Below, in pieces: positions 21,185 to 46,111 of a stretch of 47,438 nucleotides of DNA (within the stretch, counting starts at the first letter, position 1; each line of letters begins with the position of its first letter). Under the pieces are notes generated by a model that saw only the letters and a program-made list of their open reading frames with translations, was not told the origin of the DNA and searched no databases. Location: positions 1 to 47,438 of IMG/VR virus record IMGVR_UViG_3300036851_000093; one strand, 5' to 3'. The translations under genes were made by a program, and so were the position numbers. Origin of the DNA: a virus.

Positions 21185-22045
21185 CTAGAACGCGAACGCA
21201 GAGCGAGCCGACACGACCGCCGAGGCGTTCGTCCCGTTCGCGACGGTAATGGTGTTGGCACCGTGATGGACGTGCCAGTAGTCGCCGGAGACGTAGGAGG
21301 TCATGTCCTCCACGCCGTTCTTGGTGATCCGCCGATTGAGCATGTCGACCACGACGATGTCGTTGTTGACCATCCCGCTCAGGTTCAGCGTCAGGGTCTT
21401 GCCCTCGGTGCTGTTGCCGATCGCGAAGGCCGCGTTGCCGGCGCCCGACATCGTGATCGTGACTGTCGGCCAGGACGGGTGGTTGCCCTTCATGGTCAAC
21501 GTGCCAGCGCCGGTGCGGCTCTCCGCGGTCTGCAGGTAGCGCACCGGCTCCCGGAGCAGGAGCTGGATGTCGAACGGGGCGGCCAGGCCGATCGCGTCGT
21601 CCATGATCGGCTCCACGGTCGACATGGCCCGCGCGTAGATCCGGCTGGCCTGGAACCCACTCGGGTAGGTCACATCGTCCGCGGTTGGGACATCGAAGTC
21701 GAAGGCCAGGAACCCGAAGTTGGTCTGGTCCTGGTGCGTCGCGTAGCCCGGGTCGTAGGCGGCCGCCAGGCTGGCAACCAGATCGTGCAAGCCCCCGTAG
21801 GTCGAGTGCCGTACGAAGCCTTCGATCAAGTAGACCCGGCCGGCCTTGTAGGCCTTCGTGGCCAGCAGCCCCTCGGTGTTCTGACGAGCCTCCTGGGTAG
21901 TGCGGATCGTCGTGTGCGCCGAGGTCTTGGTGACCTCGATGATGTTCTGCTGCTCCCCATCGGTCCCGCCGTTCTGGACGTTGATCGTCAGACCGTTGTA
22001 GGCCATCGGGTTGCGCAGCGTGTCCGTCTTGAAGACGGGGATCAT
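21185..22045 (-). CDS. Distal tail (Dit)-like protein
   Basis: 286 aa. KAGRVYLIEGFVRHSTYGGL, VEPIMDDAIGLAAPFDIQLL and a galectin-like C-terminus with ITMSGAGNAAFAIGN, VVVDMLNRRITKNGVEDMTS and YWHVHHGANTITV match the two-domain layout of siphophage Dit/Sipho_tail proteins. Dit forms the ring joining tail tube to hub. No tail tube gene is recognisable nearby, so it may instead form the tip of a short tail. ATG 22045 overlaps the adaptor stop. Confidence 0.7.
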   Translation of the reverse strand: MIPVFKTDTLRNPMAYNGLTINVQNGGTDGEQQNIIEVTKTSAHTTIRTTQEARQNTEGLLATKAYKAGRVYLIEGFVRHSTYGGLHDLVASLAAAYDPGYATHQDQTNFGFLAFDFDVPTADDVTYPSGFQASRIYARAMSTVEPIMDDAIGLAAPFDIQLLLREPVRYLQTAESRTGAGTLTMKGNHPSWPTVTITMSGAGNAAFAIGNSTEGKTLTLNLSGMVNNDIVVVDMLNRRITKNGVEDMTSYVSGDYWHVHHGANTITVANGTNASAVVSARSAFAF

Positions 22046-22677
22046 CCGATGACCCCCGGGACCGGCCGGTGAATCGTCTGCACGCCGAGCTCTTCTCGCT
22101 CCGCCTCGTTCTGTGCCTCACGCACCATCTGCATGAGCTCGTTGACCGAGACGTTCTGGACCTGATTGCGCGCGGCCCAGTTCTTGAACTTGACCCGCGT
22201 GTGGCCCAGCTGCCGGTACGCCTCCGCCCGCGCACGCGCGAGGACGAGGGGCACGAGCTCGTCAGGGATCAGGTTGGTCGCCGTGTCGTACTTGCCCAGG
22301 CCCAGCAGGCGCAGGGTCCCCAGGCGTTCAACGAACGCGGGCGCAACGTGGAGCTTTCCAGCCCCCGTCATGATGTCGCCCACGACCTCCCACGAGCCGG
22401 ACGGCAGGGGACCACCCTCTTCACCGTCCGCGTCGACCCAGTCGACTCGATGAACTGCGAGCAGGGCCGCCGGGAGGGTGTAGTGTTCCGTCTCGGTGAC
22501 GAGGGTGACCTGGTACGTCGCAGAGGTTGGGTCGACCTGGCGTGAGTTCTTAGGCCACAGGCGTGCCACGGCACGGTTGATGAGGTTGTTCTTCTCGGCG
22601 CTCGTCCACACGGCATCGGTCCCGTCGTCGAGCATGTCGTCGAGATAGCTGTTCAGGGTCGCCAGGTCATTGGCCAC
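22042..22677 (-). CDS. Head-tail adaptor-like protein (SU10-type)
   Basis: 211 aa starting at GTG 22677. LATLNSYLDDMLDDGTDAVW, EKNNLINRAVARLWPKNSRQ and LVLARARAEAYRQLGHTRVK form the helical pattern of adaptor proteins like those of phage SU10, which dock below the portal. The middle is beta-rich (YQVTLVTETEHYTLPAALLA). Position downstream of the capsid genes and upstream of the tail genes fits a connector. Confidence 0.7.
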   Translation of the reverse strand: MANDLATLNSYLDDMLDDGTDAVWTSAEKNNLINRAVARLWPKNSRQVDPTSATYQVTLVTETEHYTLPAALLAVHRVDWVDADGEEGGPLPSGSWEVVGDIMTGAGKLHVAPAFVERLGTLRLLGLGKYDTATNLIPDELVPLVLARARAEAYRQLGHTRVKFKNWAARNQVQNVSVNELMQMVREAQNEAEREELGVQTIHRPVPGVIG

Positions 22678-23655: not shown

Positions 23656-24591
23656 CTAGCTCAGGTCAGTCGCTGCCGACTCAAGCCGGTAGTAGTAGTC
23701 GTTGTCGAGCACGGCCACACCGAAGTTGACCTTCCAGCCCAGGAGCTCTTCCTGTGCCAGAGGGTCGGTGTGGTCGCCACCCGGCGCGACGTGATGCATG
23801 GTGAGCGTCTGAAGCTCCCCAGCACCCCACGCCTTGATGGCACCCATCGCCAGAGCGATGTGAACGGTCACCGTCGAGGACGCGGTCGGCGCGGTGGGGG
23901 TCTCCATGATGCGGAAGCCCTCAAGCGTGCCGATTTCACCAGCCAGAATCTGCTCCGGGCGGCTGTAGCGGTTGACATCGATGAACGCACCGGTGCCCGT
24001 GACCGCCTCGCTTCGGATGTCGTAGGCCTGCTCGGTAGAGACGATCAGGCGATACTTCCGATCCGGGAACAAGGGGATCTTCCGCTTCAGCATCTTGCCG
24101 CGGAGCTTCCGCAGATCACCAGCCACCAGGATCTCGCCCGCACCGATGCCGGCACGAGTCGTGTTGGTACCCTGGAAGCTCACAATGCCACCAGCGGCGG
24201 CGACATTGCGAGTCACGGTGTCGACCACCTCAGCCGCGTTGCGGCCGAGACGCTCCCGCGCGATCTCCGCGATCTGGACAGGGCTCTTCACCTTGGCCAG
24301 GTCGGTGATCGACACGAGGTTCCCGTACTGGGAAGTCGAGACGGTGACGGTTCCGAAGGACAGGGCCTGCTTGTCAGGGCGCGTGCCTTCGGTAAGTGGG
24401 GTCGTCGAAACGCTGAGGTCGGGCACCGAGACGAACATCAAGGTGTCGCGGCCGGCGTCGAAGTCCCCTTCCTGCGCATAGCTCGGGTCGGCATAGACCA
24501 GATCGGAACGGAGGTTGTCGAGGACGTCCTCCTGCACGATGAAGGTCAGTGCTGACGCGAACACACTCGCAGTTGTGGATGCATCAACCAT
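23656..24591 (-). CDS. Major capsid protein, N4-gp56 type
   Basis: 311 aa. The segment LTEGTRPDKQALSFGTVTVS, QYGNLVSITDLAKVKSPVQI and AEVVDTVTRNVAAAGGIVSF matches the N-terminal region of N4-gp56-type HK97-fold capsid proteins. The A-domain-like RKYRLIVSTEQAYDIRSEAV and the C-terminal GELQTLTMHHVAPGGDHTDP also fit. It would form the icosahedral shell, assembled on the scaffold encoded just upstream. The Shine-Dalgarno sequence is weak. Confidence 0.85.
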   Translation of the reverse strand: MVDASTTASVFASALTFIVQEDVLDNLRSDLVYADPSYAQEGDFDAGRDTLMFVSVPDLSVSTTPLTEGTRPDKQALSFGTVTVSTSQYGNLVSITDLAKVKSPVQIAEIARERLGRNAAEVVDTVTRNVAAAGGIVSFQGTNTTRAGIGAGEILVAGDLRKLRGKMLKRKIPLFPDRKYRLIVSTEQAYDIRSEAVTGTGAFIDVNRYSRPEQILAGEIGTLEGFRIMETPTAPTASSTVTVHIALAMGAIKAWGAGELQTLTMHHVAPGGDHTDPLAQEELLGWKVNFGVAVLDNDYYYRLESAATDLS

Positions 24592-24638: not shown

Positions 24639-25286
24639 CTACTCGCTCTTAGGGCGCCACGGTCCCTGGAAGGACTCCAGGAGTCGCATAGCCCCCGCAC
24701 GGTCGACGACGCGCCCATCAGGGAGCTCCTTCGTCCGTACGCCTGCCGCAGGCAGGGGTGCAATAGCGCGGTTGCGGTCAACATCCGGGACGTTCGGAGC
24801 GACCACCTCGGCCTCTCCCGCGGGCGCCGGCGTAGCCGGAGCGGCAGGGGTGGCTGGAGCGGCGCTCGTAGCCTGCCGGATCTCCTTGAGAAGATCCAGC
24901 TGTTCTTGAGCGGACTGGGCCTGACCGAATCGTTCGAGCAGGGCCACCTCGTCGGCGTACCCGTTGCCCGCCAGCGCCTGGAGAGCAAGCTGCTCTTGGA
25001 GCTGAGCGATGGTCTGGTCCTTCTGTCGCTCGGTCAACTGTGCCCGCTCGTCCTCGGACAGGCCAGCGGTCTGTAGTTGACTCTGAAGCGTGTTGATCGT
25101 CCGATCCTTCTCGGAGATCACACGCTGCAGGCCCGTAATGCGGCTACCGAAACGAGTCTCGATGCCACTCACGGCCTGGTCTACCTGGGCCTTCACCAGG
25201 GTCTCGATGTCAGGCGTCTGGGGCGCGGCCGGGGTCTCCGGTGACGCAGGCTCAGGCTCCTGACCGGCGAGCTGGTCGTCTGCCAC
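24639..25286 (-). CDS. Scaffold-like coiled-coil protein
   Basis: 215 aa. An acidic Pro/Ala-rich N-terminus is followed by a long coiled coil (ISEKDRTINTLQSQLQTAGL, RQKDQTIAQLQEQLALQALA), a Pro/Ala linker and a basic C-terminus (RLLESFQGPWRPKSE). This layout, immediately upstream of the capsid gene, is typical of scaffolding proteins that are removed before DNA packaging. GTG 25286 follows GAGGAGG. Confidence 0.75.
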   Translation of the reverse strand: MADDQLAGQEPEPASPETPAAPQTPDIETLVKAQVDQAVSGIETRFGSRITGLQRVISEKDRTINTLQSQLQTAGLSEDERAQLTERQKDQTIAQLQEQLALQALAGNGYADEVALLERFGQAQSAQEQLDLLKEIRQATSAAPATPAAPATPAPAGEAEVVAPNVPDVDRNRAIAPLPAAGVRTKELPDGRVVDRAGAMRLLESFQGPWRPKSE

Positions 25287-25302: not shown

Positions 25303-28300
25303 CTACCGGCGAACCGGGAGCAATCGTTGGTACTCGGCATCTGAGCTCTGGTCGCCGGAATCGAACTCTTGGTTGATCCGTGCGAGGAGCTCTGCCGTAT
25401 AAATGGGCCCCATCTCGAGGATCGCCACGGCGGCTTCGCCAGGATTGGACGCCTTCGCGTACTCCGGCCAGAAGCCGACCCAGGACCCCACATAGCGGGC
25501 TGGTCGGGAGAGTGACACGCCGATGTCGAGCGGCGTGATGGGGAAGAGCATCTGAGCTGCGAACCACAGGGTCGGGTGCTTCTCGAGCTCCTCCGCATAT
25601 TCGGGATTGTTCTGGAGCTGCTGCAGGTGGAGCTGGTGCATGCGCTCGACCATGAACGCCCCGCCCAGGTTGGTCTGCCTGCCGCCCATCCGACGCGTCA
25701 TGACGTCGAAGAGCCAGCGCGTCGCCTTGATCTGGTAGCTCAGGGGCCAGTACAGCCAGTAGCTGTTGAGCAGGCGCTCCATGCGGGACCGATTCACGTT
25801 GCCGATCAGGACCTTGACGATGTCGTCGTAGGTGTTCTGATTGACCTCCGCAATCCGCTGCAAGAGCGGCGCGATCTCCACCATCTCGGCCTGGTTGAGC
25901 AGACGATCCGCCTCGCCCAGGACACCCTCGAGGGCTCCCATCTTGTCGTCGTTCAGGCCTCGGTAGAGCTGCTCATCGAGGAGCTCTGCGATGTCGCGAT
26001 CCGTCTTCAACTCCGGGAACCGCTCCAGGATGTCGCGCTTGATCGGGCTGTCGTCGCCCAACGATCGGACAACGTCCGTGACGGAGTCCAGGCGCTCGAC
26101 CTCGAACATCTTGGCCACCCGCTCGTCGTAGAGCCGACCCCACAGGAAGCCCGTGGTGTCCGCATCGTCGAGGGGGTTGGCGCCCATGTACTTCTTGGCG
26201 TGGATGCGGGAGGCCCGGCGTGCCAGGGCACCCGCCTCACCGCCGAATCTAGTCGCCCGCAGGCCATCGCGACCCAGGGCGATCATGTCCGCCTCGAGCA
26301 TGTTCATCAGGTGGTACCGGATGTCGGACGCGAACCGGAACAGAGGGTAGAGGGTCTTCGACAGAACCCGGGTACCCGAGCTCAGGCCGGGAACATTGCC
26401 CCAACCGTCGTAGACGCCCTTCGCCAGCCGGTCAGCGAGGCCGACCCGCTCGCCGCGGAGCACCATGTGCTCGACACGCCGGACGAAGGAGTTGGACGAC
26501 CGGGCCAGGACTTCCTGGAACGACCCGAACTTCTCAGTCACGCGCGCGAACTGCTCCGGGCTGAAGAGCTCGGCCGCGATCGATTCGATCGTTCGCTTGG
26601 GGAGGCTGTTGATCCCACGGTACATCGGGTACTCGAGGAGGCCGATCCGATGTCGCTCGACGTCGCCGCGCAGGCGCTCCAGGAAGAAGTCGATCTGCTT
26701 GGGCGTGAAGCCCTCGGGGATCAGGTGGTCGTAGATCTCCTGACGGGACGCGTGCGCCATCTTCGAGTTAGGCGTTGGCCCGAACAGGTTGTCCCACATC
26801 ATCGAGATCTTCGAGGCCGGCCCGTACTCGGACAGGAACCGAGCGACCGCATTGCGCTCCAGGACCATGGACGGCAGGACACCATCCTCGGGGTAAAGCC
26901 GCAGCGCGTTGACCGGCGCCGGCTCGAGGGTGTACATCGGGTAGTCCTCACGCAGCCGGCTCTCCAGCTCGCGCAGACGCTGCGCCATCTGGGGCGGCAT
27001 CTCGTCGAGCTTGAACCGGGGGTCCAGACGAACGGTGCGCAGCTCCTCAGCCCGCTTGTCGAGCTCCCGGCTCAGTGCCGTGGCGTCGTCCAACTTGGCC
27101 TGCTGCTCCGCGATCTGGGCCGCGCGCGTCTCGTACTCGACGAGTGCCTCACGCTCCCGCGCCGCCTTGAGCGCCGCACCGGACTCAGTCAGTGTCCCCC
27201 GCCCGCTGGCCGCTTCGACGTCGTAGCCGAGCCTCCGAGCCTGAGCGAAGAGATCCTTGCCGATCCCCTGGCCCTGATTCTTGGACCGAACCGCCACGTT
27301 GACCTGCTCGACCTGGCCTGGCTTCGCGCCTCGCTGCATCTCCAGGATGCCGGCCACATCGCCGGCCTCGTCCCGGAATACCATGTAGAGGCTCTGCGCA
27401 TTCATGACACCCTCCTCGAGGGTGTACCCCGGGTTGCCCTTGGCAGGTACCCGCGCGCTCAGCATGTTGTAGAGCGCATCCGGCTCCGACAGGTCGAAGG
27501 ACCGCGGGGCCGGCACGGTGCCGGTGATGGTATCGGGCATCCCCATCTGGAGCCGAAGCTCGGAGATGGCGACCGGCAGGTCTGCCTCGTTGATCGGGAC
27601 ATTGATCTCGACGCCACGCTTGGCATCCCAGATTGCCTTCTGCTTCTTGAGGAAAGCGGCCGTCATGGCTTCCCCGATGTCCATCAGGACCACGGAGGGG
27701 TCGACGTGGATCACGCCCTCGTTGACCCAGGTCCCGACATACGCGTCGGGGTAGGCCTTCTGGACGTCAGCCACTGCCTTGCGGAAAGCAGCCTGGTTGT
27801 CGACCGGGACCTCCCGGAAGGTGGCGTGATGCTGGCCGACGATGAAGCCGTCCTGCAGCTTGTAGTAGGCCCCGGTCCGCGGGTTCCAGGTCGCCCCGGT
27901 GTCGCGAATGGTCTGTGCGTAGAGGTCGTCGACCTGCGCCATACGCCGCATCGACGGGGGCTTGGGCTTCCGGCGCTTGCCAGGGCTGGAGAAGTCAGAC
28001 CGCAGCGATCGCTTCTGCTCAGCAATGACCTGCCGCATGTCCTCGCCGGCCATGTCGACCTCGCGATGACGGAACTTCTCGAGGTCCTTCTGGGAGTGGA
28101 TCTTGCGGACCGCGTCACGGACGATGACGCCATCGAAGTCCTGGACCTGATCGGCCGGAGCGTCCCGCTCGGCGCGACGAGCCTCGTGGAAGAGCTCCTG
28201 CTGGGCCGGCGCGTTGGTACGCAGCTCTTCGAGGGAGGGCTTCAGCTCGTCGATGTGGACCTCACGCTTGGCGCCACCACCACGCAGGGTCATGAGGCGC

Positions 28301-30207
28301 TCGAAGATCCCGGTCGTGTCGTGCTCGAGCAGGCCGGGGAACCGACGCATCGCGTCGTAGACCTCGCCCAGTGGAACCCACCCGCCATGGTCTTTGGCTG
28401 CCAGCTCCAGCACACGGATCAGGTCGGTCATGCTCTCCTTGGTGATGACCTTGGCACGACCGATCACGGCCGCCCCGAGCTTATTCAGCACCGGAGCCGT
28501 AGTTAGCTGCGCAGGCAGGAACTGCTCGAAGAAGGTCCGCCGTGCGAGCTGGGCATCCCAGGGAAAGTCGAGCGCCGTTACATCGGCGCCGAACTGGTTG
28601 GCGTGCCACCGCTTGAGGGTGTCGACCCGGGCCGTGCTCTTGATCTGGCCCTTGGCGATCATCTTCTCCTTGATGCCGTAGACCCAGTCGTGCAGGAACT
28701 TGCCGCGGTAGGCCAGGTCATCGAACGACGCCGCCAGGGTCTGGCCCGTATTGGCCTGGGGGTCCATCAGCACCGGGGCCTCATCGACGAGACGCTCCAG
28801 GGTGCTGTGCATGTCGATGTGGCTGCGGAAGTAGGCGAGGCCCTCCTCGTAGGTCAGACCCATCGCCTTGGACGTCGAGGTGATGTACTCGCGAAACTCC
28901 GTCAGGCGCTCCGCCGGCGTCGACCCGACACCCAGCTCGCGAGCCATGACGGCCTCAAAGTCGTCACCCTGGAACGCCCTGATGCGACCCCGCACGCCCC
29001 CGACGACCTCTCGGCCGAGCCCAGATGCCGGCATGTGGAAGGCGGTGACCATGACGGCCAGCATGTTGTCGGAGATCGGATGGTCATTCTGGACATCGTT
29101 GGCGAAGTCGAGCCAGCCCTGCATGATGCCGGAGACCACGTTGTTCTCGCCCAGGGTGAACTCGGCCACCTTGTCAACGCTGCCAGCTGCGACCTGGGAC
29201 CCGATGACGCCGGCCTCCGTAGCCAGGCCGATCTTGTAGCCCTTGATGGCCGTCCGGTTCGCGGACGAGGCAATCATGCGCATGTGCCCCGCCCCGCGCG
29301 CGGCCGCGTCCCACACCTGGGCCAGGCCCTTCAAACTGGCGCCCTTGGACTCGCCCCGCAGGATCTCAGCTGCCGCAGTCCGTGGAGACCCCAACTTGGG
29401 GGCCCGCAAGCCGAGACCGACCATGTCCTGGATGTAGCCAGCGCCACGCGTCATGCGACCTGCCACGCTGGGCTTCAACATCGCCCATGCGCCCTGAGCA
29501 GCCTTGCCGCCCACACGCACGATAGCCGGCCCACCGAAGAAAACCAGGTTGACCGGATCGATGACCGCTCGGTAGCCGAAGTCCGCGATTGGGTTGTCCT
29601 GGAATGGACTGGAGATGTCGCCCACCTCCCAGGCCGACACCTTGCCGGAGACCAGATCCGCTGCAACCTGATCCGTAATCCCCATCTTGCGGAGGTCTTC
29701 CTTGTACTCACCAACCGTGATGAAGGAGAGTGTCCCCTGGCCAACAGGTTCATCGTCCCGCTTGTTCCAGATCTCACGCGCGCGGTTGGCATGGTGCGAC
29801 ATGATCCAGCTGTTGGCGAATGCACCGGGTTGGCCGATCACATGAGCGATACCATCAACGGTCTGCCCGAACGTTTGGCTGCCGAACACGCGCTGGCCAC
29901 CGATGAACCCGAAGAGGTGATCGAGCGGCCCCTTCTCGTCATCAGGCGTCCCTAGGATTCGCTTTGCAGCCTGGTTCGCCAACGCGAATGGTCGCTCCGC
30001 AACGTGCGCCGGCGCCTTCACGGCGGTCGTCAGCATGTCCATCGGAGATGCCTGGACCCGCTCAGGGATACCACGCTCCGCCGGCGTAGGAGGACCAGAC
30101 TGGAGCTGTGGAGCCTTGTAGGTGAACGGTGCCCGATAGGCCTGTCCCCGCGTGGGGGCAGCAGGCCGGTCATTCGCCGTCCAGGGGCTACGGTAGGAGA
30201 ATGGCAC
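25303..30207 (-). CDS. Giant virion-associated multidomain protein with GNAT-like domain
   Basis: 1634 aa, the largest gene here. It starts at GTG 30207, overlapping the previous TAG. The first 400 residues contain hydrophobic segments (AVIDPVNLVFFGGPAIVRVG). Near residues 800-830, AYPDAYVGTWVNEGVIHVDP followed by AIWDAKRGVEI resembles a domain common in phage polyvalent proteins. Near 930-1000, YMVFRDEAGDVAGILEMQRG and VRSKNQGQGIGKDLFAQARR fit a GNAT N-acetyltransferase with its acetyl-CoA loop QGQGIG. The C-terminal third is helical (YWPLSYQIKATRWLFDVMTR). Position between portal and scaffold suggests an internal, possibly ejected, virion protein. It could modify a host target on entry. Confidence 0.75.
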   Translation of the reverse strand: MPFSYRSPWTANDRPAAPTRGQAYRAPFTYKAPQLQSGPPTPAERGIPERVQASPMDMLTTAVKAPAHVAERPFALANQAAKRILGTPDDEKGPLDHLFGFIGGQRVFGSQTFGQTVDGIAHVIGQPGAFANSWIMSHHANRAREIWNKRDDEPVGQGTLSFITVGEYKEDLRKMGITDQVAADLVSGKVSAWEVGDISSPFQDNPIADFGYRAVIDPVNLVFFGGPAIVRVGGKAAQGAWAMLKPSVAGRMTRGAGYIQDMVGLGLRAPKLGSPRTAAAEILRGESKGASLKGLAQVWDAAARGAGHMRMIASSANRTAIKGYKIGLATEAGVIGSQVAAGSVDKVAEFTLGENNVVSGIMQGWLDFANDVQNDHPISDNMLAVMVTAFHMPASGLGREVVGGVRGRIRAFQGDDFEAVMARELGVGSTPAERLTEFREYITSTSKAMGLTYEEGLAYFRSHIDMHSTLERLVDEAPVLMDPQANTGQTLAASFDDLAYRGKFLHDWVYGIKEKMIAKGQIKSTARVDTLKRWHANQFGADVTALDFPWDAQLARRTFFEQFLPAQLTTAPVLNKLGAAVIGRAKVITKESMTDLIRVLELAAKDHGGWVPLGEVYDAMRRFPGLLEHDTTGIFERLMTLRGGGAKREVHIDELKPSLEELRTNAPAQQELFHEARRAERDAPADQVQDFDGVIVRDAVRKIHSQKDLEKFRHREVDMAGEDMRQVIAEQKRSLRSDFSSPGKRRKPKPPSMRRMAQVDDLYAQTIRDTGATWNPRTGAYYKLQDGFIVGQHHATFREVPVDNQAAFRKAVADVQKAYPDAYVGTWVNEGVIHVDPSVVLMDIGEAMTAAFLKKQKAIWDAKRGVEINVPINEADLPVAISELRLQMGMPDTITGTVPAPRSFDLSEPDALYNMLSARVPAKGNPGYTLEEGVMNAQSLYMVFRDEAGDVAGILEMQRGAKPGQVEQVNVAVRSKNQGQGIGKDLFAQARRLGYDVEAASGRGTLTESGAALKAAREREALVEYETRAAQIAEQQAKLDDATALSRELDKRAEELRTVRLDPRFKLDEMPPQMAQRLRELESRLREDYPMYTLEPAPVNALRLYPEDGVLPSMVLERNAVARFLSEYGPASKISMMWDNLFGPTPNSKMAHASRQEIYDHLIPEGFTPKQIDFFLERLRGDVERHRIGLLEYPMYRGINSLPKRTIESIAAELFSPEQFARVTEKFGSFQEVLARSSNSFVRRVEHMVLRGERVGLADRLAKGVYDGWGNVPGLSSGTRVLSKTLYPLFRFASDIRYHLMNMLEADMIALGRDGLRATRFGGEAGALARRASRIHAKKYMGANPLDDADTTGFLWGRLYDERVAKMFEVERLDSVTDVVRSLGDDSPIKRDILERFPELKTDRDIAELLDEQLYRGLNDDKMGALEGVLGEADRLLNQAEMVEIAPLLQRIAEVNQNTYDDIVKVLIGNVNRSRMERLLNSYWLYWPLSYQIKATRWLFDVMTRRMGGRQTNLGGAFMVERMHQLHLQQLQNNPEYAEELEKHPTLWFAAQMLFPITPLDIGVSLSRPARYVGSWVGFWPEYAKASNPGEAAVAILEMGPIYTAELLARINQEFDSGDQSSDAEYQRLLPVRR

Positions 30208-33200
30208 TATCGCTCCCGGAAGTTGAGACGTCGAGTCGAACTCGACTTGAGACTAGCCGGCTTGCTAACCCGAACCGGCGCGGCCGGTCGGGCAGGCGTC
30301 GGCTTCACAGTGGGCTGACGCGTCAGGATCGGTCCTGACTTAGTCGGCTCCGGCATGTCGGCCATCTCCGGCGGCTTCCGCACGGGGCGGATGGCAGTCG
30401 GTGGCAGGGCCGGCATGGTGACCTTCGTCTTGGTGGCCTCGTCGGCCAGACGCTGGACACGCTGCTCGCGTCGCTGCTCGTCGATCTCAGTGCCGCCCAT
30501 GCCCAGGTTGATCCCCAGGCTCTTGGCGACCTGGGCGATCGGCTGGGTAATCGAGAGCTGCCGGACGAACTCCTGGTTCGGGACGTCTGCAATCTGCAGG
30601 CCCCGGAACCGCCGGCGAACCGTGTCACCGATCTCCGCCTGGACGCGTGCGCGGTACCGCTCACTCTCTTCCTTCTGGGTCCGGCGTGGCACCTCATTCA
30701 TGGCGTCCGCCACGCCCTGGAGCTTATCGTGGAGATCCTGAGCAGCTTCGCGCTTGCGGTACCACAGGTCCGCCTCCGTCATCGGCTCCCCAGTGATTTG
30801 GCCCGTCGCGTCACGCTTGAACATGCCCTCGATCGAGAGCTCGCCCATGTCGTGCAGGCGCGCGACCTCGCGCGGAGACAGGCCGAACGCAGGGACCGGC
30901 GAGTAACCGGCGTGCGCGAAGGGCACCATGTCCACCGCCAGAGTCCCGTCCGCATTGACCTTGACGGTCCCGTCAGCGTTCATCCCCAGGAAGCGATACG
31001 GCATCGCGCCCTTGATCCAACCATTGGACTGCGGATCGAAGGACCACGACTCTGTGACGACCTTGCCCTTGGCGTTCTCGTAGGTCACCGACGACGTCAG
31101 CCACGGAGCGATCGCGTTGGTCCGCTGGATGACGCCCTGGTCCTGGAGCCGCTGGAACGTGGCCCCATCCGCCCGGATCTGATCTAGGATCTCTGAGCTC
31201 AGGAAGGACCCGGCCTTCAGGGTCACCGTCTTCTTGTTCCCCAGGGTGACCTTCAGGTCATCCGCCACATTGACACCCCAGGCGTCGATCGGCACCGTGT
31301 CCTCGTAGAGGTCGACAAAAACCTTCTGGACTGCGCCGTTGATCTTGATGTACGCTGGCTTGCGGCCGACGCTGCCCTCGGCCAGTCCCACCGCCGGCTG
31401 AAGATCGTCCAGGACATATGCCACGGTGCCATCACGTTGAGGCTGCGCCCTCGGCACGGCCACGGCCGGTACGATCTGCACGCGGCCCCCCTGCATGACG
31501 CGTACGCGCGTGCCCTCCTCCAGGCCCTGGCGATCCTCGAGCGACAGCACAGCGGACTGCGCCAGGTCGTTGAAGAAGGCCTCGGAGACCGGAGAGTTGG
31601 GGTCCTGCGCCGTCAGGATCGAAGCCTCGCGGAGCGTCTGCTCGACGGAGGCCGGGTCGGTCCCGGTGGCGATCGCTGACCAGAGCATGTTCTGAGCGTT
31701 GGCCGCGTTGCGATACTCGGGCGGAACGCCCACGCTGCCCCAGCGCGGAGTCAACTTCTGCTTCGTCTTGGCGCCGACGGCTTCCTTCTCGGTCCCCTTG
31801 GTGACCTTCCGGTCCCGCTGGGAGACCTGCTCCTCATCGACGAAGTTCTCGAGGCCCTCGGCCCACGAAGTCCAGCTCTTCTGCAGCTGCTGCGAGACAC
31901 GGAGCCGCTGGCCCGGGTCCCCTGAATCCATGGCGTGCTGCCACGCCGACTGCGTCGATGCCATTAGATCCGCGAAGCTGTACTCGAGATCAGCGTTCAG
32001 GGTGACCTGGTACTTGGTGATGAACTCCTGCTTGTCGAGGAGCCGCTGCGTGCCGTTCGCGTTCTTGCCCTGGGCGAACTCGGACGCGCCCCACGCGTCG
32101 TAGGTGCGCATCGCCTGGCGACCCAGGTCACGGACCAGCTCGGCCGTGACCTCGAAGGCCTCGCCGGTGGTCTCGTCAACCACAATCCGCTCGCCCCGTT
32201 CGATCTGCTCGAACAGGGTGTCAACGCGGTCGATGTCTGCCTGACGGTCGAAGGCGAACTGCTTGTCGTCGACGAAGCCGATGCCCGTCCAGCCGCCCAT
32301 CGGGTCCAGGATGTTCGGGCCGCTCTGGTAGTCGACCCCGAACGGACCGGCCGCGCCGGCGACGAACTCGCCCCCGGCTCCCGAAGTGGCCCGACTGCCG
32401 GCTCCCGCGCCGCCTCCACCGCCACCTCCGCCGCCGCCTCCACCGCCACCGCCACGACGGCCGGTGCCGACGATGCGGTTGACCTGGTCGGCTGCCGACA
32501 GGAGCTGCCAGTAGCGCGCCGGGTCACTGGTACGGAAGGTCCCGGCCAGGCCCCGGAGGCCGGCCGCGTACTGCGCTCCGTTGATCTGATTGGACGCGTA
32601 CTGGTACTGCAGGTGCTCGAGCTCGCCCTCGCGCTCATTCTGGAAGATCTTGTCGTTGACCGACTCGATCTGCTTGTCGAGCTGGACGCGCAGGTCGGAG
32701 TTCGGCCGGGTCCCCTTGCGATGCTCCTGATAGAACTTCAGCAGGTCGTCGTAGGAGTGCGTCCCGCGCTCAATGCCGTTGATGATGATCTCGGCACCGG
32801 TCGTCAGGTTCTCGCCCTGTCGGCGGTCGACCAGATCATTGAACCGGACGCTCAGCTCGCGCCACGCCTCGCTGTTCTTGTCGACCTTCGACATCCGCTC
32901 GCGGTAGTAGCCCAGGAGCTGCTCGGAGTCCCAAGCACCGCTCTCGAAGTTGTATTCGGCCCGCCGGTCCGCGATCGAGTTGTGGTGCTCGCGCTGGGTC
33001 TTGAGCCAGTCGTCGTGCTCCTCGGGTAGACCCTTCGTGGCCTCGACGCGCTCATCGATGTAGGCGAGCCACTCGTCGTCGGACAGGACGCCCTGCTTCC
33101 ACTCGTTGTACTTCAGTTCATCCGCGGCCGCCTGTTCGCGCTTGGTGCGCGCGATCGCACGATCGGTCGCCGCCTCCTGCCGCGAGACGGTCCCGCGGAA

Positions 33201-33260
33201 GAGGTCGGCCAGCATCCCGCTGACGTCCTGCGATGCCCCGTAGGAGCTCGGGCGCGCCAC
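30207..33260 (-). CDS. Large internal virion-type protein, 1017 aa, poly-Gly linker
   Basis: It starts at GTG 33260 (overlapping the portal stop TAG). The N-terminal 260 residues are helical and charged (FRGTVSRQEAATDRAIARTK, RRAEYNFESGAWDSEQLLGY). A run of 15 glycines follows at about residues 268-283, then a mixed region (FVDEEQVSQRDRKVTKGTEK, TLGNKKTVTLKAGSFLSSEI) and a basic Pro-rich tail. It is neither a typical tape measure (no long hydrophobic repeats) nor a recognisable enzyme. Together with the 1634-aa protein it may be packaged and ejected. Confidence 0.65.
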   Translation of the reverse strand: MARPSSYGASQDVSGMLADLFRGTVSRQEAATDRAIARTKREQAAADELKYNEWKQGVLSDDEWLAYIDERVEATKGLPEEHDDWLKTQREHHNSIADRRAEYNFESGAWDSEQLLGYYRERMSKVDKNSEAWRELSVRFNDLVDRRQGENLTTGAEIIINGIERGTHSYDDLLKFYQEHRKGTRPNSDLRVQLDKQIESVNDKIFQNEREGELEHLQYQYASNQINGAQYAAGLRGLAGTFRTSDPARYWQLLSAADQVNRIVGTGRRGGGGGGGGGGGGGGGAGAGSRATSGAGGEFVAGAAGPFGVDYQSGPNILDPMGGWTGIGFVDDKQFAFDRQADIDRVDTLFEQIERGERIVVDETTGEAFEVTAELVRDLGRQAMRTYDAWGASEFAQGKNANGTQRLLDKQEFITKYQVTLNADLEYSFADLMASTQSAWQHAMDSGDPGQRLRVSQQLQKSWTSWAEGLENFVDEEQVSQRDRKVTKGTEKEAVGAKTKQKLTPRWGSVGVPPEYRNAANAQNMLWSAIATGTDPASVEQTLREASILTAQDPNSPVSEAFFNDLAQSAVLSLEDRQGLEEGTRVRVMQGGRVQIVPAVAVPRAQPQRDGTVAYVLDDLQPAVGLAEGSVGRKPAYIKINGAVQKVFVDLYEDTVPIDAWGVNVADDLKVTLGNKKTVTLKAGSFLSSEILDQIRADGATFQRLQDQGVIQRTNAIAPWLTSSVTYENAKGKVVTESWSFDPQSNGWIKGAMPYRFLGMNADGTVKVNADGTLAVDMVPFAHAGYSPVPAFGLSPREVARLHDMGELSIEGMFKRDATGQITGEPMTEADLWYRKREAAQDLHDKLQGVADAMNEVPRRTQKEESERYRARVQAEIGDTVRRRFRGLQIADVPNQEFVRQLSITQPIAQVAKSLGINLGMGGTEIDEQRREQRVQRLADEATKTKVTMPALPPTAIRPVRKPPEMADMPEPTKSGPILTRQPTVKPTPARPAAPVRVSKPASLKSSSTRRLNFRER

Positions 33261-35167
33261 TAGACTTCCTCCCTAACGGTCAGCTGCTGAAGCGGCTGAA
33301 CCTGCCCCGAGGGCGTACCTCGCAGGAGCGTCTGCTGGGTGAAGCCCAGCCCCTCCGCACCGGCCCCCGCGGGCGGCGCACTGCCTACCCCAGTCGCCGG
33401 CGTAAGCGATTCCTCGTTCTGGGACTCGTCCAGAGTTGGCTGAGCCGTCTGGGCGTCCTGGTCTGCCGCCTCGGAGCTGGCCTCGGGCGTGGGGGCAGCG
33501 CCCCCAGCCATAGCGATCTGCTGTGCAGTGGCGGCCACGGCCATCTGAGACTGCACCTCTCCTGGGTAGAGCTTGACGTCAGATCGTTCCTCTCGGATGA
33601 GCTCGAGCTCGTCCTCTGGCGAGTCCTCACCCAGCCGATCCATGGAGGACCGGTTCGACGAGAGCTTGGCGTTGATCTTGTTGATCTCGTTCATGGTCGC
33701 CTCGATGACGTCGCGTGGCGTGATCTCCGGCGCAATGACCTTCCAGCGGCGCATGCCCTTGACCTTGTCGGCCAGGGCGAGCGTCTCACCGTCGGGGGTC
33801 TTGATCTTCACGTCCATGCGCTCGATCATGGCCAGCCACATCACCAGGACCTGGATCAGGGCGTTGTACATGTAAAGGCGCGCAATGCCGATCCGGTTCG
33901 AGGCGCCTTCGATCTGGATGGCGACGGCACGACCGGACGTCTGCGCCCCCGGGAGCTGGCCCCACAGAACCTCGCTCAAGCCAGTGCGCCGATGGATCTC
34001 GTTCCAGAGCGCGGCCACAGCCTCGGACATCTGATAGATGTTGCCGACGCCCTTGTTGATGACCTCGAAGAAGCGATTGCCCCCTGGCGCCACGGCATCG
34101 CCGGCAGCCGGGATGCTGCCCGCCGGCACCTCGTCGTTGCCTTCGCCCCTCAGCTGGTATGCGGGGTCAATGTTGTCCGCGATCGCCTGCATCCAGTGGC
34201 TCATGAGCCGGTTGAACTCGATCTGCAGGTCGACCAGGTCATCGACGATCGACATGCCCTCGGGGTTCCCCGGCTCCCGATCGTTGGGGACGGGGATGTA
34301 CGGGATGCCGATCAGCTCGCTGTGGGTCCCCTCAGCCACGACGGTGCGGTTCAGCATGATGACGTTCTGCACCACGCCGTCTTCGTCGATGTACCAGTAG
34401 TCCCACACGCGGACCTGCTTGCGCTCGTAGTCAGTCAGGGTGTACCGCTTGCGCTGCGGCCGGAAAGGTCGCTGCTCGACGGTTCCCCCACCGATCGTCC
34501 CAGCGGTGCCGGAGTCGATGCTATCGATCGGGTCCGCATGGTCGCCGGCCCCTTCGAGGACCTCGATCTTCAGGGGCTTGTCCTTGCCCTGGTTCGGGCT
34601 GACCTGAACGTCCGGGAACCGCCGCATCGCCTGGATCGGGCTGATCGCGTACTCGTAGATGATCCAATCGACGGTTTCGTAGTTGCTGTCGCCCCACCCG
34701 ACACGCAGGTTCTGGGGCTGCTCAATCGCCGTGAAATCGGGACGCTTCTCATCGTTGTTCCAGAAGACCTTGAAGAACGTCTTGCCGTAGAGGTTCTTCG
34801 TCTTCGAGGTCATGGCCAGCTGGACTTCCCAGTTGGCCAGCTCGAGGAAACGGTAGACCATCTTCTCGACGCCCTCCGCCTGCTTGCGCGTGGCCGGATC
34901 AGTCGTCGGGGGAACCAGCGCCAGCCGCGGGAGAATGGCCTCGAGACGGGCCCGGATCTCGACTGCCGGCTTGATGACGTTCTCCGTCATGTGGATCTTG
35001 CCCGGGCGCTTCTTGGCGTCCTCGGGCCACTGATCGCCACGCGGCGGGCTGTAGTAGAAGTGCCGCTTGTTGTACTGCGCCGCCAGGTCCAGGTAGTAGG
35101 CCTCGACCTCGACGTACCGCTCAATCGCCTCAGCGGCGACCATCTGGCGCGCGATCTGATCCGCCAC
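33260..35167 (-). CDS. Portal protein
   Basis: 635 aa starting at GTG 35167, directly after the terminase stop. VIKPAVEIRARLEAILPRLA, KNLYGKTFFKVFWNNDEKRP, DYWYIDEDGVVQNVIML, YIPVPNDREPGNPEGMSIVD and the long helix LVDLQIEFNRLMSHWMQAIA are the order seen in P22/SU10-type portals. QTSGRAVAIQIEGASNRIGI follows. It forms the dodecameric DNA channel and docks the terminase. The low-complexity Gln/Ala/Pro tail is probably flexible inside the capsid. Confidence 0.9.
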   Translation of the reverse strand: MADQIARQMVAAEAIERYVEVEAYYLDLAAQYNKRHFYYSPPRGDQWPEDAKKRPGKIHMTENVIKPAVEIRARLEAILPRLALVPPTTDPATRKQAEGVEKMVYRFLELANWEVQLAMTSKTKNLYGKTFFKVFWNNDEKRPDFTAIEQPQNLRVGWGDSNYETVDWIIYEYAISPIQAMRRFPDVQVSPNQGKDKPLKIEVLEGAGDHADPIDSIDSGTAGTIGGGTVEQRPFRPQRKRYTLTDYERKQVRVWDYWYIDEDGVVQNVIMLNRTVVAEGTHSELIGIPYIPVPNDREPGNPEGMSIVDDLVDLQIEFNRLMSHWMQAIADNIDPAYQLRGEGNDEVPAGSIPAAGDAVAPGGNRFFEVINKGVGNIYQMSEAVAALWNEIHRRTGLSEVLWGQLPGAQTSGRAVAIQIEGASNRIGIARLYMYNALIQVLVMWLAMIERMDVKIKTPDGETLALADKVKGMRRWKVIAPEITPRDVIEATMNEINKINAKLSSNRSSMDRLGEDSPEDELELIREERSDVKLYPGEVQSQMAVAATAQQIAMAGGAAPTPEASSEAADQDAQTAQPTLDESQNEESLTPATGVGSAPPAGAGAEGLGFTQQTLLRGTPSGQVQPLQQLTVREEV

Positions 35168-36721
35168 CTAGATACGCCCTCTCTGTGCCACGGTCGCCCC
35201 TGGTCGGAATGCCGCACGCACCTGGCCACCCGCCCCCATGCCGTGCCCGTTCTGGGCAGCACCGGCGGCAGCAATGACCGTGTCCTGCTGGATCTTGTCG
35301 TCGACGAGTCGGTAGTTCATCACTTCTCTGAGGAGCCGCAACCAGGGCCCAGTCTTCGGGAACTTCAGCTTCCCGGTCAGCAACAGCATGCGGAGGTTGG
35401 TCAGGGCATCGAGCTTGATCTGCTTCTTGCCGGCGAAGTCAATCGGCTGCTTCGGTGAGATGTCTGACAGGAGCTGGGTGAACATATGTCCACCCATGGA
35501 CGTACTGTCCCATCCGCTCTTGCAGGTCGTGCCGCGGATCATGCGACGGGCCATGGACGGCTTCGCGTGGTACCAGAAGTGCGTCCGGTGGATCTCCATC
35601 AGCAGGTCATCGACCCCCAATGGGATCTGGTTCCACTGTAGGTAGACTCCCTGCCAGTGATCCGGGTCTGTGACATCGATGACGATGCCGGCGGTCGGGT
35701 CACTGTCGAGCGACGGGTCCCAAAAGGCGGAGTACGAATGCCCATCCTGGGGTGGAACATGGACCGGGAGCGTCACGTCGAACGCCGCCTCGATCCTCTC
35801 CAGCGGAACGAAGAACGCCTCTTGCGGGTTGAGGAACGCGCCACGAAGGGTCTGCTCCTTGTGCGCTGACTGCTTCGCCTCCTCCCGGTCAATCGCCTCC
35901 TGCGTCAGGCCGAACCCGAGGTTGTCGTACACATCGGCGTACATCAGGACCTCGCCGTCGTCGTTGACCCAGACCCGGTCATCGATCTCGCCGGCTTCAC
36001 CGAGGATGTGGTGGCCACTGTCCCGCAGGCGTGTGACGAGCTCGAAGAAGTCGTTGATGCCGTCAGGCGTCGAGACGATGAAGAGGGGACCACCCGAGGC
36101 GATGAGCCGCATGCTCAGCACCTCCTCGATGATCTCGATCAGGTGCGTCTCGAAGGCTGCCTCGTCGAACGAGATCCCCGCCGCCCGCCGACCCTGCAGC
36201 GCCTTGGCCCGCTCGGACGTGGTGCGGAAGTGGATGTGCGCCCCATTCCATAGCTCGAGGCCGTCGTAGTAGTGCTCAAGCGTGACGCTCTTGACCATCC
36301 CCTCCGGGATGCGCATCGGCCGGTACTCGCCGGTGGCCTTGTCGAACTGCGCCGGGTGCGACCCCTGGACGAGGAGTTCGATGTCCCGGAGCGGCAGGTA
36401 GGCCTGCTCCTGGAACGGGCTCAGGTGGTACCACTCGTACGGGGCGTCGAGCCACCGTGACGTCTCGGCCGTCGGGACGCCGATCTTGTTCCAGGCTGCC
36501 CACAGAAGCAGGAACGCCAGGCCGAGCGTCTTGCCGACCTGGTTGGCCGCCCAGAAGACCAGGAACTTGGTAGCCCACGTCTCCGACCCGTCGCGCGGGG
36601 CGACCATGCGGATGAGGCGCTTCTGAGCGAAGTTGAATCGAATGCCGAGGATATGCTCCCCGAAGTAGATGGGGTCCCGGCTATAGCCGAGGTGAGCTAG
36701 CTCCTGGAGCTCAGAATCCAT
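35168..36721 (-). CDS. terL: Terminase large subunit
   Basis: 517 aa. The ATPase has Walker A AANQVGKT (58-65), Walker B GISFDEAAFE (about 182-191) and the motif III region FIVSTPDGIND. The nuclease domain includes FWDPSLDSDPTAGIVIDVTD and DIQQD-like acidic residues near LVDDKIQQD. It cuts concatemers and pumps DNA through the portal encoded next. ATG 36721 overlaps the small gene upstream by 11 bases. Its class cannot be assigned to cos or headful packaging from sequence alone. Confidence 0.93.
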   Translation of the reverse strand: MDSELQELAHLGYSRDPIYFGEHILGIRFNFAQKRLIRMVAPRDGSETWATKFLVFWAANQVGKTLGLAFLLLWAAWNKIGVPTAETSRWLDAPYEWYHLSPFQEQAYLPLRDIELLVQGSHPAQFDKATGEYRPMRIPEGMVKSVTLEHYYDGLELWNGAHIHFRTTSERAKALQGRRAAGISFDEAAFETHLIEIIEEVLSMRLIASGGPLFIVSTPDGINDFFELVTRLRDSGHHILGEAGEIDDRVWVNDDGEVLMYADVYDNLGFGLTQEAIDREEAKQSAHKEQTLRGAFLNPQEAFFVPLERIEAAFDVTLPVHVPPQDGHSYSAFWDPSLDSDPTAGIVIDVTDPDHWQGVYLQWNQIPLGVDDLLMEIHRTHFWYHAKPSMARRMIRGTTCKSGWDSTSMGGHMFTQLLSDISPKQPIDFAGKKQIKLDALTNLRMLLLTGKLKFPKTGPWLRLLREVMNYRLVDDKIQQDTVIAAAGAAQNGHGMGAGGQVRAAFRPGATVAQRGRI

Positions 36722-45234: not shown

Positions 45235-45452
45235 CCGCACACTGCCGCTACGAATGCCGCCACTATCGGATCGTGCGCCACTACTTCAACCGATGGCCAA
45301 ACCGCCGGACGATCACAACCGGCCTAACGCTCGCTGAAGCGCAAGCGCATTGCAATGACCCGGAGACTAGCAGTAGTACGGCCGTTGGCAAGGTCGCAAG
45401 CGCACGCACGCGCCGACTCGGCCCATGGTTCGATGGGTACACCGCATCATGA
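45231..45452 (+). CDS. Actinophage-type conserved protein with HCNDPETSSST motif, 73 aa
   Basis: The sequence has CRHYRIVRHYFNRWPNRRTI, TGLTLAEAQAHCNDPETSSS and GPWFDGYTAS. The T-G-L-T-L-E/A-E-A-Q-x-H-C-x-D-P-E-T-S-S-S-T core and the G-P-W-F-D-G-Y/F end recur in small proteins I know from actinobacteria and their phages. Their role is not established. ATGA overlaps on both sides support reality. Confidence 0.75.
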   Translation: MTAHCRYECRHYRIVRHYFNRWPNRRTITTGLTLAEAQAHCNDPETSSSTAVGKVASARTRRLGPWFDGYTAS

Positions 45453-46111
45453 CCGCGGCGCAACGCCGACGCATCGCACGCCTAGGCGGCCGTGCTACCG
45501 CGCGGGCCCGTCGCGTACGGGTCATGGCGGAGCGACTCGGCCGCCTGTACGCCGATGCTCCCGACTCCGCCCGGGCCGATGGCGCCGAATGGTACGCGAC
45601 CGCGCGCCTGACATGTCACGCCCTGGCCGCCGATGGCCACTACACCCCGGCGCAAGTAGCGGGGATCGTGGCCGCCCTGAGCCCGCGCGTATCCTGGGAG
45701 CAGAATGTTGCGGCCGCGTATCGCATCATCGAAGCTGGCCGCCGCGCATGGCCGCAACCTATGGTAGCTGGCACCGGATCTAACCGTCGCAAGGCTTGGA
45801 GTATCGCATGCGGCGGAGATCCGGCCGAGATCCTAGGCGGGCCGAAGGTCCGCGCATTCTTCGCCAACCTGACCGGCGACGATCACGCCGTAACGGTTGA
45901 TGTATGGGCTGCCCTGGCCGCCCTAGGCCGACCGGTCGCGACCATCCGCGGCGCCCAGTACCTGGAGATCGCGGACGCCTATCGCATGGCCGCGCGAGAC
46001 GCGGAGATCACGCCGCGCGAGCTGCAGGCTACGGTATGGTGCGCCATCCGCGGCCGCTCCAGCCTAGACGCGTTCACCTATGTCCAGCCCAGCCTATGGG
46101 CCCTGGCATGA
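45449..46111 (+). CDS. HhH glycosylase-like protein (DUF7178-like), 220 aa
   Basis: The core is YTPAQVAGIVAALSPRVSWE, then AEILGGPKVRAFFANLTGDD and HAVTVDVWAALAALG. The G-G-P-K-V-x-x-F-x-x-N-L-x-G pattern followed by V-T-V-D-V-W-A matches a phage family I recall as DUF7178, resembling the helix-hairpin-helix DNA glycosylase fold with an Asp after the hairpin. Its target and activity are unknown. The start overlaps the previous stop. A base-excision or DNA-end binding role is a guess based on the fold. Confidence 0.65.
   Translation: MTAAQRRRIARLGGRATARARRVRVMAERLGRLYADAPDSARADGAEWYATARLTCHALAADGHYTPAQVAGIVAALSPRVSWEQNVAAAYRIIEAGRRAWPQPMVAGTGSNRRKAWSIACGGDPAEILGGPKVRAFFANLTGDDHAVTVDVWAALAALGRPVATIRGAQYLEIADAYRMAARDAEITPRELQATVWCAIRGRSSLDAFTYVQPSLWALA

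Follow-up and report, generated by a model that had tools for sequence, protein, structure and literature searches.

Gene neighbourhood of a giant head-region protein

The window analysed here is an IMG/VR virus record of 47,438 bases from an uncultured phage. Its minus strand carries, in order, genes for the terminase large subunit (TerL), the portal protein, a 1017-aa protein (P0002), a 1634-aa protein (P0001), a scaffold-like protein and the major capsid protein:

35168..36721, minus strand: terminase large subunit (TerL; phrog_2, E = 1.2e-16; PF03237)
33260..35167, minus strand: portal protein (phrog_156, E = 2.5e-18)
30207..33260, minus strand: P0002, 1017 aa, a place conserved in many related loci
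25303..30207, minus strand: P0001, the large protein, 1634 aa, GTG start at 30207
24639..25286, minus strand: scaffold-like protein, named from its position and charged coiled-coil-like sequence
23656..24591, minus strand: major capsid protein (phrog_1357, E = 2.5e-40; PF25209)

A first-pass annotation had proposed a 1634-aa open reading frame between the portal and scaffold genes. The reading frame is real and lies on the minus strand with its GTG start at 30207, and the placement is borne out, but the 1017-aa gene separates it from the portal gene. The start codon of P0001 overlaps the stop codon of P0002 by one base in the sequence TAGTG, and the start of P0002 overlaps the portal stop in the same way. 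As each of the two genes begins with the final base of the stop codon before it, P0001 and P0002 are probably translated with the portal protein. From this gene position we infer that P0001 is of virion type, as it had been labelled.

Neither the scaffold-like protein nor P0002 matched any family among Pfam and PHROGs profiles. P0002 contains a run of more than 10 glycines, and in many related loci the same slot is filled by a gene of 870-979 aa. A tblastn search of 50,697 phage records gave no match to the terminase, and the nearest relatives of the capsid protein are those of Pagevirus, Streptomyces and unnamed phages, at ~30% identity. Pageviruses are podoviruses. In Pagevirus Pony the order is TerL, portal, a 263-aa gene and capsid, and both large genes are absent. 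At 21185-22045 and 22042-22677 of the window, a Dit-like siphovirus tail domain (PF22768, E = 5e-12) occurs beside an SU10-type adaptor (PF24175). A short tail would suit the absence of any tape-measure-sized gene among the window's tail genes, although with the Dit-like domain present a short tail is just one possibility.

This neighbourhood also bears on whether P0001 could simply be a long structural protein of a familiar type, for example a tape measure protein or a MuF-type minor head protein. Its adjacency to the portal region, like that of SPP1 gp7 (MuF), and its long helical stretches fit such a role. However, the gene lies upstream of the capsid gene and away from the tail genes, and searches of Pfam, PHROGs and NCBIfam matched the protein to neither MuF nor tape-measure families. 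Pagevirus Pony, moreover, whose capsid protein is similar, lacks a gene of this kind between portal and scaffold. We therefore consider this explanation very improbable.

Two further reading frames were seen on the plus strand. One, of 976 aa at 25576-28506, is antisense to the P0001 gene and probably arises as an artefact of the 65% GC content and the high GC at third positions; the other, at 45425-46111 in an oppositely oriented gene block, matches phrog_3842 strongly (E = 7e-45).

A probable GNAT-like domain in the middle of P0001

P0001 can be divided into two end frames and a middle that contains recognizable domains:

28156..30207, minus strand: N-terminal frame, residues 1-684 (blastp/phmmer; common to L025, L026, L029, L030, L041 and L042)
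27583..28002, minus strand: phrog_17808-like domain, residues about 736-875, containing YVGTWVNEGVIHVDP
27172..27495, minus strand: GNAT-like domain, residues about 905-1012 (Pfam match 935-1009; AlphaFold2 model, Foldseek)
27259..27276, minus strand: QGQGIG, residues 978-983, a Q/R-x-x-G-x-G/A acetyl-CoA pyrophosphate-loop motif
27076..27186, minus strand: long helix, residues about 1008-1044 (AlphaFold2 model, low to medium confidence)
25342..26949, minus strand: C-terminal frame, residues about 1087-1622 (14-sequence alignment; signature NSYWLYWPLSYQIKA)

A GNAT-like domain with an acetyl-CoA-binding-like loop had been proposed from the sequence, and profile searches support it. In a search of 13 virus records, PF13508 matched the window genome with E = 1.1e-6 (24.7 bits), while the records of the 12 relatives (about 0.35 Mb) held no match at E <= 1. 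Acetyltransf_7 matched whole P0001 at E = 0.0014 and the cut-out domain at 5e-5; the cut-out domain was also matched by Acetyltransf_10 (2e-4) and by rimI of NCBIfam (7e-4), and Acetyltransf_1 likewise matched the region. All GNAT family scores fall below their curated cut-offs, that of PF13508 being 24-24.7 bits against a gathering score of 27. GNATs also take the first five places among PDB sequence matches, with the YvbK-like 1yvk at E = 0.008, and in these alignments strand 4 and the QGQGIG loop coincide with those of solved GNATs. The loop, located at residues 978-983 as the earlier claim requires, fits the motif and has a modelled strand before it and a helix after it. The reading frame is unbroken through the region, where GC and GC3 resemble those of the rest of the gene. 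We regard a GNAT-like domain in P0001 as likely.

Searches with this segment found no relatives in phages and, whether it was used alone or aligned with other GNATs, no confirmed relatives in viral contigs. Plasmids gave weak matches only, two of them annotated GNATs.

To the extent that a predicted structure can be trusted here, it agrees with the profiles. An AlphaFold2 model of residues 876-1045, made from the single sequence without an alignment (pLDDT 70, pTM 0.56), has the order alpha-alpha-beta-beta-beta-alpha-beta, which is that of GNATs. The best 50 Foldseek matches in the PDB all appear to be GNATs, judged by description, and are weak (E 0.03 or worse, TM ~0.25); against viral models, the top two hits are Streptomyces and Arthrobacter phage proteins named as acetyltransferases. 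With this pLDDT and pTM and no Foldseek match reaching E 0.001, the fold is not firmly established. The first-pass annotation had named the lack of a predicted GNAT fold at residues about 930-1010 as grounds for refuting it; the model, low in confidence as it is, did not refute it.

Might the match be a chance resemblance around the glycine-rich loop of a helical structural protein? The sub-threshold scores and the low TM-scores are what such a resemblance would give. However, chance would have to account for an E value of 1.1e-6 in a genome whose related records gave none, for matches to several GNAT families, for five GNATs heading the PDB sequence matches, and for a homologue-free model whose best 50 PDB matches appear to be GNATs. 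We regard chance as quite improbable.

The completeness of the domain is a separate matter. In the low-confidence model, a short strand 5 is followed by a long helix, without the usual alpha4-beta6-beta7, and the GNAT-like part thus seems truncated after strand 5, with its C-terminal half absent or replaced. Catalysis is uncertain for this reason. Truncated GNAT-like proteins exist. The domain could be a remnant, degenerate or without catalysis, whose role is to bind a partner or CoA or just to fill its place, in a P0001 that is structural and serves head assembly or DNA ejection. Such a remnant would be consistent with the weak family scores and with the modelled helix in place of alpha4-beta6-beta7, and the occurrence of the domain in one phage only means that purifying selection on an active site would not be visible. 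On the other hand, the Q-x-x-G-x-G of the pyrophosphate loop is fully preserved, this loop and strand 4 can be aligned with solved GNATs, and the unbroken frame shares its GC and GC3 with the remaining gene. On balance we consider a remnant unlikely, but a serious alternative to an active domain.

Upstream of the GNAT-like domain, residues 764-875 (~110 aa) match phrog_17808 with E = 8.7e-12. The YVGTWVNEGVIHVDP segment singled out in the first-pass annotation occupies residues 823-837 within this match and has turned out to be a real homologue of small actinophage proteins of that family. By tblastn, the homologues of the segment are Kumao gp116, Fryberger gp75 and Rockstar gp76 of Mycobacterium and Gordonia phages. 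Unlike the domain in P0001, these are separate small proteins unfused to a giant protein, and their genes are not adjacent to annotated structural genes. A profile of the segment that includes the window sequence also matched L030 weakly (E = 1.8e-5).

Relatives with conserved ends and different middles

Scans of viral and genome collections with whole P0001 found no relatives; the C-terminal segment, and then its alignment, did find them. The C-terminal segment search recovered L025-L030 and L041-L045 in virus contigs, and L046 and L047 in two bacterial MAG contigs. The latter contigs were binned to Vicinamibacterales and Chloroflexi MAGs, which makes these groups possible hosts, although binning of phage contigs is unreliable. 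The relatives that share the ends of P0001 come from uncultured phages; in the closer ones the C-terminal segment is 42-62% identical to that of P0001, and an alignment of 14 sequences gives NSYWLYWPLSYQIKA as the family signature of the C-terminal frame. No Pfam or PHROG family matched the N- and C-terminal parts of P0001, and the predicted structure of the C-terminal frame (14 sequences, pLDDT 54) was of too low quality to be read and has no credible fold match. Profiles of LPD38 and MPTase-PolyVal matched neither the ends of P0001 nor the HExxH segments described below; LPD38 matched no control genome either, which makes its negative result uninformative.

Between these ends the relatives differ. 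L025 aligns to P0001 residues 163-685 and 1087-1618 with only ~20 residues between, and thus lacks the 400-aa insert. L026/L028/L029, L030 and L042 have a conserved HExxH segment (TAxHEFAHVFR) within a middle that is much longer, and in L026, L029, L030 and L042 an EE lies downstream of it; by its motif this segment is zincin-like, and no profile matched it. In L043, L044 and L045 the middle holds a ddrB-ParB domain that scores above the curated cut-off (E = 3e-17, 5e-22 and 4e-23, respectively), and L045 matches DdrB of phage P1. A GNAT in the middle was found in the window phage only, among the relatives compared. Read from the sequences, the family conserves its chassis while the middle is exchanged, and phage polyvalent proteins follow the same principle (Iyer et al. 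2017, PMC5512222). The polyvalent character suggested by the first-pass annotation gains support from these relatives, which have the same ends and carry ddrB-ParB or HExxH mid-protein.

More distant relatives of the TerL keep the order TerL, portal, a protein of about 930 aa and a giant protein. Their giants range from 1262 to >1640 aa, and in some of them the C-terminus gives a weak match.

Two further segments were noted in relatives. In the giant protein of L041, an extra segment with YHFTKPENLDSILVEGL lies inside the C-terminal frame (L041:8900-9560); an ADP-ribosyltransferase-like reading of it was made by eye only and was set aside after Pfam and PDB searches gave nothing. At L042:5705-6380, GGCLIFSVALQKKYGGKLIGAWDD in the giant protein resembles a cysteine-protease-type domain by eye and has no Pfam match.

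An active acetyltransferase could act during assembly on phage proteins (the portal, scaffold or capsid protein, or P0001 itself) instead of on the cell just infected, and the start/stop overlaps that couple the gene to the portal operon, so that P0001 is probably made alongside capsid proteins, are in keeping with this. Yet the cargo is swapped for ddrB-ParB or HExxH in relatives, or is missing as in L025, so no given cargo can be needed for assembly. A role in assembly is therefore improbable in our assessment.

Proposed function and comparison with known systems

The reading that we favour, by a modest margin over even odds, is that P0001 is a polyvalent protein held in the capsid and ejected with the DNA, whose GNAT cargo acetylates a host target. 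The N- and C-terminal chassis would most likely hold P0001 inside the capsid near the portal and allow it to leave with the DNA, while the middle would serve as an exchangeable cargo bay. Here the cargo would consist of the phrog_17808-like domain and then a RimI/YvbK-like GNAT, which the long helix would connect to the C-terminal chassis. Once inside the cell, and before any phage gene is expressed, this GNAT would transfer the acetyl group of host acetyl-CoA to an amino group on a host target. Most likely the target would be a protein, which could belong to a defence system or to the translation machinery or be RNA polymerase. We infer the packaging, ejection, catalytic activity, target and benefit of P0001; by analogy with the P1 Dar system and polyvalent proteins (PMC9024508, PMC5512222), packaging, ejection and acetylation of a host target at entry are the most likely course. 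Counter-defence, which the first-pass annotation had in mind, is by the same analogy one possibility among several, and takeover of transcription or translation is equally possible.

More tentatively, and with rather more doubt than belief, we suggest that in a podovirus-like family a conserved giant head protein serves as a delivery chassis with swappable cargo (none, ddrB-ParB, zincin-like or GNAT-like), the cargo here being a host-modifying acetyltransferase. If this is true, the set of proteins that a phage delivers pre-made evolves by domain exchange inside one gene. Proteins that accompany the DNA are at work before the host's defences can react, and to our knowledge few of known activity have been established. 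A chassis with a swappable middle, together with a cargo-free version, would offer a direct route to telling apart the regions responsible for delivery and for activity, and reading the middle of P0001-type genes across phages would be a way to look for further cargo.

GNAT-bearing polyvalent proteins are already known as a kind. What appears to be new, at the level of sequence, is a chassis family that Pfam and PHROGs do not contain, a GNAT without detectable relation to Alice gp113, and a natural cargo-free version (L025). Delivery of polyvalent proteins at invasion has been proposed, and GNATs are among their domains and were judged likely to modify proteins (PMC5512222). Like the phage-type polyvalent proteins described there, P0001 is very large and multidomain and is encoded beside head genes, among virion genes as they are; it joins unrelated domains (phrog_17808-like and GNAT-like) in one polypeptide, and the architecture varies among its relatives. 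The polyvalent hallmark domains, ddrB-ParB and zincin-like, are borne by those relatives, and RimI-like GNATs are described in the same study, whereas P0001 itself carries only the GNAT-like domain from the published set, and its chassis, by contrast, matches neither the LPD38 nor the MPTase-PolyVal profile. Membership of the P0001 GNAT in the family of Alice gp113, a solo GNAT cited in that study, was considered and rejected: BLASTP gave E = 0.70, with the match outside the motif, and hhalign found no alignment, so that similarity between the two is undetectable.

In phage P1, DarB and DdrB are found in the virion head, DarB is believed to enter the cell, and 30 N-terminal residues of DarB suffice for its packaging (PMC9024508). 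P1 Dar thus also involves large head proteins, and the ddrB-ParB domain of DdrB is common to L043-L045; in contrast, P0001 has no ddrB-ParB match, and P1 is a myovirus with several separate Dar proteins. A further giant is JC1 gp69, a DarB-like protein of 4515 aa in virions of the Bcep22-like podovirus JC1 (PMC9144972). It is comparable as a giant virion-associated protein of a podovirus, but its gene lies at the end of the morphogenesis module, whereas that of P0001 lies between portal and scaffold, and no GNAT domain was seen in the description consulted. Finally, phiKMV-like phages have Rac, a GNAT-related protein that affects host RNA polymerase alpha (PMC7552054). Rac, as portrayed there, is a separate protein, whereas the GNAT of P0001 is a domain of a giant head-region protein.
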